A stretch of 25,578 nt of DNA, taken from positions 1 to 25,578 of IMG/VR virus record IMGVR_UViG_3300020478_000057, one strand, 5' to 3'. Positions 3,190 through 25,374 of this stretch are shown piece by piece. The stretch is from a virus. The number at the start of each line of letters is the position of its first letter. Positions within the stretch are counted from its first letter, which is position 1. The position numbers and the translations under genes are program-made. The notes below the pieces were generated by a model that had not been told where the DNA came from, ran no database searches, and saw only the letters and a program-made list of their open reading frames with translations.

Positions 3190-3651
3190 ATGAAAAAGAA
3201 GTCCGAGCACTACGTAAATAATAAGGAATTTCTAGAAGCCCTGGTAGAATTCAAAGCAGCATGTAAAATTGCTGAAGAGAATGATGCGCCAAGACCACAG
3301 ATATCAAACTATATTGGTTCTTGCTTTCTAAAGATTGCTACTCACCTATCATACAAACCAAACTTTGTGAACTATATGTTCAGAGAGGACATGATATGTG
3401 ATGGTATAGAGAACTGTGTACAGTATATCCAGAACTTTGATCCCGCAAAGTCTAGTAATCCTTTTGCTTATTTCACTCAGATTATATACTACGCTTTCTT
3501 AAGACGGATCTCTAAAGAGAAACGACAACTAGAGATCAAGAACAAGATCATTACTAAGTCTGGATACGATCAAGTATTCCATACTGATGATAGCACCAGT
3601 CACTCTGACTATAACACTATCAAAGAAAACGTACAGGTAAAATCAAATTGA
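3190..3651 (+). CDS. 55: gp55 late-transcription sigma factor
   Basis: A 153-residue protein with the typical gp55 core: an acidic, helical N-terminus, then a region-2-like segment (MICDGIENCVQYIQNFDP, SSNPFAYFTQIIYYAFLRRI, SKEKRQ). T4 gp55 is 185 residues; it directs RNA polymerase to TATAAATA late promoters and is activated by the gp45 clamp, also encoded here. The weak tail (residues 125-153) is variable. The gene has its own sigma70-like promoter with a leader of about 15 bases and no clear Shine-Dalgarno. TATAAATA-like boxes occur in this window at 18483 and 25188. Confidence 0.93.
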   Translation: MKKKSEHYVNNKEFLEALVEFKAACKIAEENDAPRPQISNYIGSCFLKIATHLSYKPNFVNYMFREDMICDGIENCVQYIQNFDPAKSSNPFAYFTQIIYYAFLRRISKEKRQLEIKNKIITKSGYDQVFHTDDSTSHSDYNTIKENVQVKSN

Positions 3652-9892: not shown

Positions 9893-10981
9893 ATGGCTAA
9901 CAAACTCGACAGAGCATCTGAACTTCGTTCTCAGTATGGTAACGAAATCAACGCAGCACAAGTTAGAGAATATTGTGCTTCAAAAGGTTTGACCTATCCT
10001 ACTTTGGCAAAGCAACTAAGAAAGTACAAAGTGGATGGTCAAAGAGGTCAGTGGAATCTTACAGTTCGTGAAGCATTAGAGCAGACACTTACCAAAACTC
10101 CTGCTATTGTAGAGAAGGTAGACCAGAACCTTGTTCCATTCAAGGATGATGAGTTCGTACCATTTGGAAACTTCACTGATCTTAAGAAGGTTATAAGATC
10201 AAAGACCTTCTATCCCGTATTCATTACTGGATTGTCAGGTAACGGTAAGTCCTATTCAGTAGAACAGGCATGTGCCCACTTGAATAGAGAACTGATCCGT
10301 GTTAATATTACTATAGAAACTGATGAGGATGATCTTATTGGTGGTTTTCGTCTTGTTGATGGGAACACTGTTTGGCACAATGGGCCTGTTATAGAAGCAC
10401 TAGAACGTGGTGCTGTACTCCTCTTAGATGAGGTGGACTTAGCATCTAATAAGATTCTTTGTTTACAGAGTATCTTAGAAGGTAAAGGTGTCTTTCTTAA
10501 GAAGATAGGACGTTATGTTAAACCTGCTAAAGGATTCACAGTGATAGCAACTGCTAACACTAAAGGAAAAGGATCCGATGATGGAAGATTCGTTGGTACT
10601 AACGTACTTAATGAAGCATTCCTTGAAAGATTCCCACTCACATTTGAGCAGGAGTATCCATCACCAGTGACTGAAGGCAAGATTCTTGCTTACCACTGTG
10701 ATGATGCTGACTACGTTAAGAACTTATGTGACTGGGCAGACATCATCCGTAAAACATTTAAGGATGGTGGTATCGATGAGGTTATCAGTACAAGGAGACT
10801 GGTTCACATCGCACGTGCTTACTCCATCTTCGGAGATAAAGCAAAAGCAATCTCCACATGTATCTCAAGATTCGATGAGGAGACTACTCAAGCATTCCAA
10901 GAGTTGTATGACAAAGTGGATGCCAAGGTAGAGTTTGACAATGTACAAACATCAGAGTATAATGGAAACGAGGCACAATAA
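9893..10981 (+). CDS. cobS: CobS-like MoxR-family AAA+ ATPase
   Basis: A 362-residue AAA+ protein. A basic N-terminal helical region (about 1-55, with QVREYCASKGLTYPTLAKQL) resembles the small N-terminal domain of CobS. Walker A is GLSGNGKS at 113-120, Walker B is LLLDEVD with D179 and E180, sensor 1 is IATANTKGKG, and an arginine-finger segment NEAFLERFPL follows. Phage genes of this kind are usually called cobS. In bacteria CobS and CobT form the ATPase part of cobaltochelatase with CobN. Here the nearby CobT-like gene has an HExxH motif, so a general MoxR-VWA remodelling or protease-regulating role is equally possible. AAGG lies five bases before the ATG. Confidence 0.85.
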   Translation: MANKLDRASELRSQYGNEINAAQVREYCASKGLTYPTLAKQLRKYKVDGQRGQWNLTVREALEQTLTKTPAIVEKVDQNLVPFKDDEFVPFGNFTDLKKVIRSKTFYPVFITGLSGNGKSYSVEQACAHLNRELIRVNITIETDEDDLIGGFRLVDGNTVWHNGPVIEALERGAVLLLDEVDLASNKILCLQSILEGKGVFLKKIGRYVKPAKGFTVIATANTKGKGSDDGRFVGTNVLNEAFLERFPLTFEQEYPSPVTEGKILAYHCDDADYVKNLCDWADIIRKTFKDGGIDEVISTRRLVHIARAYSIFGDKAKAISTCISRFDEETTQAFQELYDKVDAKVEFDNVQTSEYNGNEAQ

Positions 10982-17953: not shown

Positions 17954-17978
17954 GAGGGGTTTCAACACCCCTCTTTTT
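17954..17978 (+). terminator. Rho-independent terminator after regA
   Basis: GAGGGGT (17954-17960) pairs with ACCCCTC (17967-17973) around the loop TTCAAC, followed by TTTTT. It ends the clamp-loader/regA operon 16 bases after the regA stop and isolates hsp20. Confidence 0.92.
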
Positions 17979-17986
17979 GTGGCTGG

Positions 17987-17995
17987 TGTTATAAT
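17987..17995 (+). promoter_or_regulatory. extended -10 promoter for hsp20
   Basis: TGT-TATAAT (17987-17995), a TGn extended -10 followed by the exact consensus hexamer. It lies just after the terminator and about 57 bases before the hsp20 ATG. No matching -35 box is seen, as is usual for extended -10 promoters. Confidence 0.55.
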
Positions 17996-18052
17996 TAGTA
18001 GTGGATGCCGAAAGGGTCCACACAATACAAACTCGCTTACAAAGGAGCTATT

Positions 18053-18487
18053 ATGACTAACTTAGCAAGGTTTCACGCTGCGAATCTTCCAGAATTGATG
18101 GAGAGGATTCATAAAAACAGCATCGGTATGGACGATTACCTCAATCGATTCTGGGATGGTGTAGACTCTACTTCAAACTATCCACCATATAATATTATAG
18201 AAATTAACAATGTGGAATCGAGGTTGGAAGTTGCCCTGGCGGGCTTCAAAAAAGATGAGCTCAAAGTCTTTACGGAGTTTGGAAAATTACATGTCGAGGG
18301 CAGCAAAGAAAAACAGGAAGATGCTGGAACGTTTAGACATAGAGGAGTGGCCGCAAGGTCGTTCTCTAGGGTCTGGTCACTCTCTGATGATACCGAAATA
18401 CGAGGAGTCGAATTCAATGACGGATTACTCGTTGTAAAACTCGGTAAGATTGTTCCTGACCATCATGCCCGTAAGGAGTATCTATAA
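18053..18487 (+). CDS. hsp20: Hsp20 small heat-shock protein
   Basis: Taking ATG 18053, which has AAAGGAG five bases upstream, the protein has 144 residues (an in-frame start at 18005 is open but lacks a good site). The alpha-crystallin domain covers about residues 45-140: PPYNIIEINN, RLEVALAGFKKDELKVF, GKLHVEGSKE, the motif SFSRVWSLSDDTEIRGVEF and NDGLLVVKLGKIVP. Small heat-shock proteins hold unfolding proteins as oligomers. The gene is a signature of T4-like cyanophages, commonly near the replication genes as here. Its stop codon overlaps a late promoter. Confidence 0.92.
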   Translation: MTNLARFHAANLPELMERIHKNSIGMDDYLNRFWDGVDSTSNYPPYNIIEINNVESRLEVALAGFKKDELKVFTEFGKLHVEGSKEKQEDAGTFRHRGVAARSFSRVWSLSDDTEIRGVEFNDGLLVVKLGKIVPDHHARKEYL

Positions 18488-18490
18488 ATA
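18483..18490 (+). promoter_or_regulatory. T4-type late promoter TATAAATA
   Basis: An exact match to the T4 late promoter octamer recognised by gp55. It overlaps the hsp20 stop (18485-18487). With standard spacing the transcript would start near 18496, just before the 12-bp hairpin at 18500, giving a late mRNA for the Sm-like genes with a 5' hairpin. Confidence 0.7.
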
Positions 18491-18499
18491 TAAAAACTG

Positions 18500-18527
18500 G
18501 GGGAGCTTGACATCTGTCAGGCTCCCC
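18500..18527 (+). other. 12-bp hairpin containing a -35 box
   Basis: GGGGAGCTTGAC (18500-18511) pairs with GTCAGGCTCCCC (18516-18527), with one G-U pair and the loop ATCT. Only ATT follows, with no T-run, so terminator strength is doubtful. The stem contains TTGACA, the -35 box of the promoter at 18507. Confidence 0.85.
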
Positions 18528-18535
18528 ATTATAAT
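18507..18535 (+). promoter_or_regulatory. perfect consensus sigma70 promoter for the Sm-like/polymerase genes
   Basis: TTGACA (18507-18512), a 17-bp spacer and TATAAT (18530-18535): both boxes and the spacing are ideal. The transcript should start near 18542, leaving a leader of about 15 bases. The -35 lies in the right half of a hairpin stem. Confidence 0.85.
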
Positions 18536-18556
18536 ATAGAGGTTAATTAATAAGCC

Positions 18557-18955
18557 ATGATCGACGAGACAAGAATTAAGTTACTGTTGACACGTGATGG
18601 CGATACCGTCATCTGTGATCTTCAAGAGGCAGTTGACAAAGAGACTGGAAATAGACAGGCATACTTAATGACTATTCCATATAAGGTAGAGATAACAGAT
18701 CAACCATCACAGTTGACTGATCCAGAAACCTTTGAGGATTTAGAAATTAAGATCAGGTATACACCATGGAATCCATTCACTATTGATCAAAGGATTGCTA
18801 TAGTACCTGACTATGTTGTATCTGTAATGGAACCAGCACCAAGTTTACTTCAGACATACCTAAGTAATGTACGTAAGAAGCAAGGTGATCAAGGTCTACC
18901 AACTCCACCAGTTACCAATCCTGAAATTATCGCACCTGATGGTACAGCAACATGA
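18557..18955 (+). CDS. Sm-like (LSm-fold) protein, copy 2
   Basis: A 132-residue paralogue of the Sm-like protein at 2697: IKLLLTRDGDTVICDLQEAV, AYLMTIPYKVEI, RYTPWNPFTID, IVPDYVVSVMEPAPSLLQTYL. The C-terminal tail is Pro/Thr-rich. First gene after the consensus promoter; it overlaps the next Sm-like gene as ATGA. RNA-binding role is inferred; the tandem copies may form mixed rings. No Shine-Dalgarno is evident. Confidence 0.6.
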   Translation: MIDETRIKLLLTRDGDTVICDLQEAVDKETGNRQAYLMTIPYKVEITDQPSQLTDPETFEDLEIKIRYTPWNPFTIDQRIAIVPDYVVSVMEPAPSLLQTYLSNVRKKQGDQGLPTPPVTNPEIIAPDGTAT

Positions 18956-19419: not shown

Positions 19420-19591
19420 GGAGCCTGCTGCTCATCTCTATCAACCGTTTCAAGTTAAGGACGATGGTACATTAGAACCATGGCCACTTCACACAGTGGA
19501 CGATGACGTGTTGATTTATTCTGATACCATTGCTACAATCTTAGAACCTAAGGAGGAAGTCCTTAAGAAGTATAAGACCTGTACTACATGA
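19352..19591 (+). CDS. Sm-like (LSm-fold) protein, copy 4, short
   Basis: From ATG 19352 the protein has 79 residues and aligns directly with the other copies: TQLILLKSGTYLISQIETL, HLYQPFQV, LEPWPLHTVDDDVLIYSDTI, ILEPKEEVLKKY. An ATG at 19340 would add four residues; that ATG directly follows an in-frame TAA at 19337. It overlaps copy 3 by 68 bases and ends as ATGA into the polymerase gene. It is the smallest, consisting of the Sm core alone. Confidence 0.55.
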   Translation: METQLILLKSGTYLISQIETLDEEPAAHLYQPFQVKDDGTLEPWPLHTVDDDVLIYSDTIATILEPKEEVLKKYKTCTT

Positions 19592-22083
19592 GTTTCTACA
19601 CAAACGTACAACTTGTTGGAGATAACCTTCTCTACCTAGGGTACGAAAACGGGAGGAGGATCCAGAGAAAGTTTAAGTTTTCTCCTACCCTCTATGTGGT
19701 GAGTAATCAACCTACCAAGTTTAAAACCTTGGATGGTCGTTTTGCCAAGCCAATACAATTTGATACTGTCAGGGAGGCACGTGATTTTAGAGACAAATAT
19801 AAAGGTGTAGAGGGGTTTGAAGTACATGGGTATGATAGGTTCTTATATCAGTATATTTCGTCGGAGTTCCAGAACGAAGTGGACTACGATCTTAAGACTC
19901 TCAAGATTACATCGCTTGATATTGAAGTCGCATGTGAAAATGGTTTTCCTAACGTACGTGAATGTGCGGAACCATTACTATCGATTACAGTCCAGGACTA
20001 CGCTAGCCGTTCACTTAAAGTATGGGGGACGAAGCCTTATACCACGAATCGTAAGGACGTTGAGTTTATCTTGTGCGACAGCGAAGAACATTTGCTACGT
20101 AGCTTCCTTGCTTATTGGCAGACTGACTTCCCAGATGTTCTTACAGGGTGGAATGTTGAGTTGTATGATATCCCTTATATCTGTGGCAGACTCGAAAGAC
20201 TCTTCGGAGAGAAAGAGATGAAACAGATATCCCCATGGGGTATCGTTCATCGTGAAGAGATGGAGATCAAGGGTCGTCAACAGATTCTTTATAACATCTA
20301 TGGACTCAGTGTCCTAGACTACCTTGACTTATATAAAAAGTTTACTTATACTAATCAAGAATCATATCGCTTAGACCACATAGCATTTGTGGAACTAGGT
20401 CAGAAGAAGTTAGACCACAGTGAGTTTGAGAACTTCAAGGAGTTCTATACAAAAGACTGGCAGAAGTTTATCGACTACAACATCAAGGACGTGGAACTCG
20501 TTTCACAACTTGAGGATAAGATGAAACTGATAGAGCTTGCTATTGCCCTAGCCTATGATGCTAAGGTCAATATGAAAGATGTCTACTATCAGGTACGCAT
20601 GTGGGACACTTTGATATATAATTTCCTTGGGCAGAGGAACGTTGTAGTTCCACCCACTAAACGATCAGACAAAAATCAACAGTACGCAGGTGCTTATGTC
20701 AAGGAACCGAAACCAGGACGCTATGATTGGGTTGTTAATTTTGACCTCAATAGCCTGTATCCTCATCTCATTATGCAATACAATATCTCCCCAGAAACCC
20801 TCTGGGAGACTAGACATTCCAGCGCGAGCGTTGAACGGCTTCTGAATCAGGATGTAGAGATCAATCCAGACTTCTCAACGTGTGCTAATGGTGCTCAGTA
20901 TCGTAAGGACATCAGAGGATTCTTACCTGAGATCATGCAGAAGATATACGATGAACGTGTTCAGAGTAAGAAGCTTATGCTCATGGCAAAGCAGGAGTAT
21001 GAGAAGACCCCAACGAAGGAACTAGAGAAGGCGATCAGTAAGTACAATAACATTCAGATGGCTCGTAAGATCCAACTGAACTCTGCTTATGGTGCTATTG
21101 GTAACCAGTACTTTAGGTACTACAACCTTGCTAATGCTGAAGCAATTACATTGTCAGGTCAGGTCTCTATCAGATGGATAGAGAACAAGATGAATGAGTA
21201 TCTTAATAAATTATTGAAGACTGATGGAGAAGATTATGTCATCGCAAGTGATACCGATAGTATTTACTTGTGTCTCGATAGCTTGGTACGTACAGTATTT
21301 GGTGATAAAGAAGTATCTCAGGAAAAGATCGTATCCTTCCTTGATAAAGCATGTAAGGAAAAGATAGAACCATTTATTGATAGATCATACGAAGAGCTAG
21401 CAACCTATGTGAATGCTTATGATCAGAAGATGTTCATGAAGAGAGAGAACATTGCTGCTAGAGGTATCTGGACTGCTAAGAAAAGATATATCTTAAACGT
21501 ATGGAACAGTGAGGGTGTACAGTATGCTAAACCTAAGTTAAAGATGATGGGTATAGAAGCAGTCAAGTCTTCTACACCAGCACCATGTCGTACTGCTATT
21601 AAGGATGCTCTTAACATCATGATGAGTGGTGAAAATGACGAGTTGATATCCTTTATAGATAGATTTAAGGATGAATTCTATTCGTTACCGCCTGAAGATA
21701 TAGCATTTCCGAGGTCGGTTAATGGAATCACAAAATATAAATCTAAGACAGACGTGTATTCAAAGGGATGCCCGTTACATGTTCGTGGAACTCTCCTTTA
21801 TAATTTTTATGTCACTAAGCAACGACTCGAACACAAATATCCATTGGTTCAAGAAGGGGAGAAGATAAAGTATCTGTTCCTTAAACAGAAAGATAATAAA
21901 AATTATACAAGAGAGAATGTTATATCCTTTTTGAATACATTTCCTAGGGAACTAGGACTTGAGAACTGTATAGACCGTAAGGCACAGTTCCAGAAGTCTT
22001 TTCTTGACCCTTTACAAATCATCACGAGCGTGATAGGATGGGAGACAGAGAAGATTGCTAACCTTGAATTTTTGTTCGCATGA
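19588..22083 (+). CDS. 43: gp43 DNA polymerase (family B)
   Basis: An 831-residue replicative polymerase, uninterrupted. Exonuclease motifs: LDIEVA (D111, E113), [12 protein letters not shown], and YNIKDVELV. Polymerase motifs: [10 protein letters not shown] (D386), [13 protein letters not shown], and ASDTDSIYL (D555, D557). T4 gp43 is 898 residues; the shorter length is normal for cyanophages. There is no intron or intein in this copy. ATGA overlaps join it to the Sm-like gene upstream and uvsX downstream. Expression may start at the consensus promoter at 18507. Confidence 0.98.
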
Positions 22084-25345: not shown

Positions 25346-25374
25346 TTGACAAGTACACTTAATTGATGTATAAT
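25346..25374 (+). promoter_or_regulatory. perfect consensus sigma70 promoter for mazG
   Basis: TTGACA (25346-25351), 17 bp, TATAAT (25369-25374). It lies immediately after the small ORF. Twenty-one bases separate the -10 box from the ATG at 25396, the same as at gp55 and at the Sm-like operon. This suggests strong early expression by host RNA polymerase. Confidence 0.88.

Follow-up and report, generated by a model that had tools for sequence, protein, structure and literature searches.

How does a virus place the end of one transcription unit and the beginning of the next in the same letters of DNA? This question is raised by the short spacer between hsp20 and the replication genes in a 25,578-nt stretch of viral DNA (IMG/VR record IMGVR_UViG_3300020478_000057; hereafter the window), which its gene content and its synteny with P-HM2 identify as a fragment of a T4-like marine cyanophage. 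The genes follow the order gp55, gp45, gp44, gp62, regA, hsp20, two DUF6561 genes, gp43, uvsX and gp41. The ORF of the small heat shock protein hsp20 (18005..18487, +; Pfam HSP20, E 1.5e-11) ends with the stop codon TAA at 18485-18487. The first gene downstream, a DUF6561 gene (T4-GC 176, phrog_431; 18557..18955, +; ATG at 18557), heads the gp43-uvsX-gp41 replication operon, as judged from synteny with P-HM2 and S-SM2, and the main gene of this operon is the DNA polymerase gene gp43 (19588..22083, +; Pfam DNA_pol_B, E 3.2e-33). Upstream, a terminator after regA (17954..17973, +; terminator score d 11.9) is separated from hsp20 by a spacer with an extended -10 motif, TGTTATAAT (17987-17995, +). 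With this terminator on one side and the hairpin described below on the other, hsp20 is flanked by two hairpins.

The spacer between hsp20 and the gp43 operon combines three signals. A T4-type late promoter motif, TATAAATA (18483..18490, +), overlaps the hsp20 stop codon; it is the sole exact copy on the + strand of the window and one of four occurrences of NATAAATA there. Its expected reader is the gp55 encoded in the window (3190..3651, +; phrog_234 late sigma transcription factor, E 1.3e-68). A 12-bp hairpin follows at 18500..18527 (+), with arms at 18500-18511 and 18516-18527 and the loop ATCT at 18512-18515. The -35 hexamer TTGACA (18507..18512, +) lies in its 5' arm, with the final A serving as first loop base, and the -10 hexamer TATAAT (18530..18535, +) stands directly 3' of the stem at a spacing of 17 nt, where it doubles as most of the U-tract. 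The two hexamers form an early promoter with a 12/12 match to the sigma-70-type consensus. The 75-base layout set out in the earlier note (late motif, 12-bp stem, TTGACA and TATAAT at 17) is thus exact letter for letter; the transcription starts at ~18496 (late) and ~18542 (early) are extrapolated from motif spacing. The hairpin leaves the region of the start codon uncovered, and therefore no translational effect is predicted.

We compared this arrangement with chance expectation. The RNA fold of 18483-18560 has a minimum free energy of -27.4 (z = -5.27), and none of 200 shuffles reached a value as low. Perfect TTGACA-(16-18)-TATAAT promoters occur three times in the window versus a mean of 0.07 per dinucleotide shuffle; one of the three carries a stem of at least 10 bp, a combination found in none of 60 shuffles. 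No other GC-rich 12-bp hairpin exists in the window, and none arose in 60 shuffles. A chance co-occurrence of promoter and hairpin is ruled out by the z value of the fold and these 0/60 shuffles. A comparison of the element with Rfam gave no match at the gathering threshold. The two other 12/12 promoters of the window have no hairpins and are located at 10935-10963, inside the 3' end of a cobS-like ORF (9893-10981), and at 25346-25374.

Searches with the downstream and upstream proteins led to 72 and 80 IMG/VR loci, respectively, whose spacers we compared. The architecture is kept in one register in the orthologous spacers of more than 100 marine T4-like contigs, and 51 distinct spacers share the same pairs, defined by i+j=13 with positions numbered from the first T of TTGACA. 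TTGACA is invariant in 50/50 distinct aligned relatives; in the -10 hexamer, TATA.T is invariant and the fifth position is conserved in at least 90%. Under the i+j=13 structure, 93.5% of the cells in the alignment are paired and seven pairs are changed on both sides, giving 62 double-changed cells versus 17.8 in shuffled alignments; these counts are not independent events, because the sequences are related. The covariation score of 0.458 compares with 0.273 for shuffled data and with 0.166-0.195 when the partner is slid by one column. This alignment was preselected for at least 9/13 pairs; in the unselected list, the stem is likewise present in nearly all hsp20 spacers that have a consensus promoter. 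The covariation among related phages that the earlier note had named as a check on the stem is therefore present, and early promoter and hairpin are conserved together as one unit, as it had suggested.

The distribution of changes within the stem is instructive for what is being conserved. In the outer stem the letters differ among relatives and are matched by compensatory pairs, while the promoter hexamers are nearly invariant; opposite the -35, at the TTG pairs, 63 one-sided G-U cells stand against 6 mismatch cells. Fixed promoter letters, matched stem pairs and G-U pairs opposite the -35 together argue for selection on RNA pairing and promoter at the same time. The promoter letters would thus be held for protein recognition, with the opposite strand following at the RNA level. 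The inverted repeat could also be viewed as a DNA operator, at which a dimeric repressor sitting over the -35 and the spacer controls the early promoter. Its dyad centre just downstream of the -35 and the presence of TTGACA..TGTCAA dyads in promoters upstream of gp55 would suit such an operator; however, it is the pairing that is conserved and not the dyad letters, as seen in the differing outer stems, and the G-U cells break the DNA symmetry while keeping the RNA paired. We regard a repressor site as very improbable here. The TTGACA(n)TGTCAA dyads upstream of gp55, at 123718 in Syn9, at 125259 in P-SSM4 and near 20730-20800 in P-HM2 (L156), are possibly operators.

A covariance model of the element gave a single strong hit in each of MED4-213, three further genomes (G001, G002, G003) and the window, every time at the hsp20 junction, which rules out an element scattered through the genome. 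Similarly, all 24 copies retrieved with a DNA pattern (24/24) lie directly after hsp20. The corresponding junction of P-HM2 (L156, 33825-35251) has kept the hairpin (14 bp) with a weakened -35, and an endonuclease gene and a dam gene are inserted between the hairpin and the DUF6561 gene.

Next, we considered the hairpin as a terminator. The stem is strong (dG -23.1) and its tail, ATTATAATA, is a poor U-tract in the window copy. The d'Aubenton-Carafa terminator score is -11.4 for the window copy and above 0 in 22/50 relatives, and a simple terminator scan did not list the window hairpin. Because of the poor U-tract and the score, termination at the window copy may be weak; the score itself is a poor guide, since the promoter-hairpin copies of phage RB49 reach values of only -43 to -46. 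In more distant lineages, the same junction is occupied by canonical U-run terminators fused to an early promoter whose -35 lies in the loop or an arm (the 3' arm in some) and whose -10 follows at 17 nt. For this reason we describe the window hairpin as terminator-type, with an efficiency that remains uncertain. The strong stem and the poor U-tract, which the window copy shares with about half of the relatives, would also suit a role in stabilising or processing the 3' end of the hsp20 mRNA, in which case the overlap with the promoter would only save space. Such a role would leave the near-constant distance to the -10 without a need and does not sit well with the canonical U-run terminators at this junction in distant relatives, so that we consider it quite unlikely. 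Weakened read-through from hsp20, which the earlier note had offered as a possibility, is from these comparisons the best-supported function of the stem.

Altogether, we read the element as the fusion of a terminator-type RNA hairpin with a sigma-70 early promoter at the junction of two transcription units, and put the probability of this reading at about two-thirds. That hairpin and -35 are encoded in the same DNA, with the -10 directly after them, is shown by the sequence and its comparison with relatives. RNA polymerase leaving hsp20 would make the hairpin and be stopped or slowed there; the stop may be full in some relatives and is probably only partial at the window copy. Host sigma-70 polymerase would start a clean early mRNA for DUF6561-gp43-uvsX-gp41 at ~18542, beyond and thus free of the hairpin.

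As for the late motif at the hsp20 stop, it would be either a remnant of the start of a short late RNA or a start that still works. Motifs of the MTAAATA type are strongly strand-biased in complete cyanophage genomes and therefore represent a genuine class: P-HM2 has 31+29 copies of ATAAATA/CTAAATA on the gene strand versus 3+1 on the other, and in the window 9 lie on the + strand versus 1 on the - strand. The window motif, as TATAAATA/NATAAATA upstream of a predicted start, has the form of a late promoter. Many lineages carry a late-type motif over their hsp20 stop, in most cases with a conserved block and then a terminator behind it. This recurrence, like the presence of the gp55 and gp45 genes in the window, speaks for the late motif pointed out in the earlier note. 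Among distinct hairpin-bearing relatives, 24/26 have no late motif (one row listed as late, L146, is really the U-run form), and where it is kept, a true terminator usually follows within about 45-75 nt.

These counts bear on the idea that both promoters serve the polymerase operon, with a late gp43 mRNA from ~18496 protected by the hairpin at its 5' end and an early mRNA from ~18542 lacking it. In its favour, the two motifs stand in the order required, the window encodes gp55 and gp45, RB49 and S-PM2 have been proposed to use overlapping early and late promoters for middle genes (PMC2984593), and the weak U-tract of the window copy would permit read-through. However, the hairpin is mostly conserved without the late motif, and a terminator usually follows where that motif is kept. 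Two types of leader for the polymerase mRNA are therefore not the conserved function; the prediction of two polymerase mRNAs of differing stability or translation did not hold up among relatives, and we consider this arrangement unlikely for the window. An expression study of P-HM2 gives temporal classes, with no mapped starts for the hsp20-gp43 junction (PMC5082946).

In relatives, the late motif is followed by one of two conserved blocks, GAGTTCGAGATGGATC (family A) or GAATATCGTCGSCGC (family B). When we scanned without requiring a late motif, 72/82 distinct A blocks standing before a U-run had MTAAATA, at a distance of 5-7 nt upstream in 71 of these 72, versus 0/33 for A blocks without a U-run. 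The predicted late RNA measures 42-48 nt in family A and 54-64 nt in family B. A covariance model for family B found one copy per genome in S-SM2, Syn9, S-IOM18 and Syn19, and the B module is present in 134 public isolate records, at one place each and under no RNA annotation. Examples of the late-promoter module are located at L641:2501-2579 (S-SM2), at L644:2135-2186 (Syn9) and near 2501-2584 in L642 and L643, and the collected copies comprise L350-L640. In total, the intact module is represented by more than 200 distinct copies, and no genome has more than one strong copy. A fused early promoter with its -35 in the hairpin, ~12 nt before the U-run, was found in 147/206 distinct modules (14 in a control window), and the promoter spacer measures 17 nt in 138 of those 147. 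A register-based alignment with given structure showed six double-changed pairs and 15 double-changed cells versus 7.9 in shuffled data, which is modest support, with stem lengths varying within both families. No match to the module was obtained in Rfam at the gathering threshold. Among cyanophage RNAs, the literature consulted names CfrI, PhotoRC-II, wcaG, manA and the glutamine riboswitch; an earlier description of the predicted late RNA is possible.

Read as its reverse complement, block A is identical to a stretch of bacterial 5S rRNA. In the 5S genes compared, which come from genomes of Cyanobiaceae (the family of a Synechococcus MAG), the counterpart of block A is CGATCCATCTCGAACTC and that of block B is GCGSCGACGATATT. 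In many relatives, the first 14-17 nt of the predicted late RNA are an exact antisense match to host 5S rRNA, at either of two sites. Antisense runs extend over 14-20 nt in most modules, versus mostly 8-10 nt against shuffled 5S and mostly 5-8 nt in the sense direction. The C/G variation within block B is the same as that in host 5S, and a rarer block, TCTTCGCCGC (L129), matches the host allele GCGGCGAAGATATT. The longest 5S-antisense match per whole genome is 14-16 nt versus 13-15 nt in controls, which is not significant alone; the case for 5S therefore depends on the conserved blocks, which had been identified before 5S came into consideration. The block variants TCGTCGCCGC, TCGTCGGCGC and TCTTCGCCGC (L129) mirror the host 5S alleles GCGGCGACG, GCGCCGACG and GCGGCGAAG (5S loci L667-L696), so that the phage RNA appears to vary as if tracking the alleles of its host. 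Separately, an unusual 123-nt 5S gene (TTTGGTGTTTTTAG...) is identical in genomes labelled Synechococcus, Pelagibacteraceae and Bacteroidota (L651, L650, L646; G008-G010); it probably derives from a contaminant contig, perhaps of plastid origin.

How does the window copy relate to this module? It shares the layout of a late motif over a stop codon, then a hairpin, then a fused early promoter. After its late motif, no stretch of more than 5 nt is antisense to 5S, and the module words are absent from the window. The hsp20 junction takes several forms in relatives: late motif, block B and a U-run terminator/promoter (S-SM2); late motif and block B with a hairpin of the window type (L038-L044, L572); block A and hairpin without late motif (L107-L115); late motif and hairpin without a block (the window, L004-L006); and, in the majority, the hairpin alone. 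The window copy looks like a reduced form of the module, with an order of events that we infer, the link being made through position and these intermediates only. In relatives with the full form, the late motif at this junction would begin a 42-64 nt RNA that opens with the antisense-5S block and ends in the terminator holding the early -35. With the block gone in the lineage of the window, a late start would yield a hairpin RNA of ~35 nt or some read-through into gp43. We tentatively suggest that the triple unit of the window is the worn-down gene of a tiny late RNA whose intact form has a gp55-type late promoter, a 5' block antisense to Synechococcus/Prochlorococcus 5S and a terminator carrying the next -35, and which could bind nascent 5S and block ribosome assembly late in infection; we see this as a real possibility that falls somewhat short of probable.

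In a compact virus genome, two opposite signals, a terminator-type hairpin and a start, thus share one set of letters, of which those of the promoter stay fixed while the stem evolves around them. If expressed, the late RNA directed against 5S would represent a novel route by which a phage affects the ribosomes of its host.

The closest known counterparts are PeSL (promoter-early stem-loop) cassettes, reportedly described by Arbiol in 2010 and Comeau in 2014 in the T4-type phages RB49 and phi1. In outline, the published cassettes consist of a strong sigma-70-like early promoter and a stem-loop terminator, in dispersed copies that mediate gene shuffling (PMC4503421, PMC3950731). As far as this outline goes, the likeness lies in a sigma-70 early promoter and a stem-loop that share a few dozen bases at a gene junction. 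The promoter of the window element is likewise strong (12/12, kept in 50 relatives) and combined with a stem-loop in one cassette, where the stem overlaps the -35 and the spacer. Unlike the RB49 PeSL, it is a single copy at a fixed junction, with a covarying stem around a fixed promoter, and its -35 lies inside the 5' arm, whereas the stem of the 13 near-identical RB49 copies lies wholly between -35 and -10. RB49 has 13 promoter-hairpin overlaps versus 1.7 expected, and cyanophages other than that of the window have 3-6 versus 0.7-3 expected. In nearly all 13 RB49 copies (L181-L189; for example at 115033 and 121736, minus strand), a GC-rich hairpin exactly fills the 17-nt spacer (AGGGGATCGGTGATCCCCT).

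A U-run terminator-promoter cassette, TTGACANNCNCTTTTTTTATGCTATAAT / TTGACANNCNCT7ATGCTATAAT, was found in 109 IMG/VR stretches (L218-L326). It is located at many junctions, often after gp23 or regA and also after cobS, ferredoxin and other genes, and nearly all of its 65 distinct copies pair, although the search pattern left the 5' arm unspecified; no tRNA was found downstream of these cassettes. In its behaviour, the U-run cassette of cyanophages resembles a dispersed PeSL cassette. The RB49 composite in 13 copies, the spread of the U-run form over junctions with 22 upstream and 14 downstream gene clusters, and the endonuclease and dam genes inserted right behind the P-HM2 junction could be taken to mean that the unit is chiefly a recombination cassette (PeSL) for swapping gene blocks. 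The window form, however, is present once per genome and always after hsp20, which leaves this the least probable of the explanations weighed here. The fused hairpin and early promoter of the window works like a PeSL and is not classed as one; the U-run cassette would fit better.

Comparison with other known systems gives a similar picture of partial likeness. Overlapping early and late promoters for middle-mode genes have been described for RB49, S-PM2 and Syn9 (PMC2984593), so that the general idea is already published; the window likewise has an early and a late motif before a homologue of the T4 middle gene gp43, but a hairpin lies between the two starts, and in most relatives the late start would end at a terminator. 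Like an intrinsic terminator, the hairpin has a GC-rich stem, a short loop and an A/T-rich tail and follows a gene; unlike one, it has a stem that carries a -35 and a U-tract, poor in the window copy, that consists mostly of the -10 box. Finally, the late motif is the exact octamer of T4 late promoters, in a window with gp55 and clamp genes, but differs from those promoters in overlapping a stop codon and in having a hairpin ~4 nt after the predicted start.
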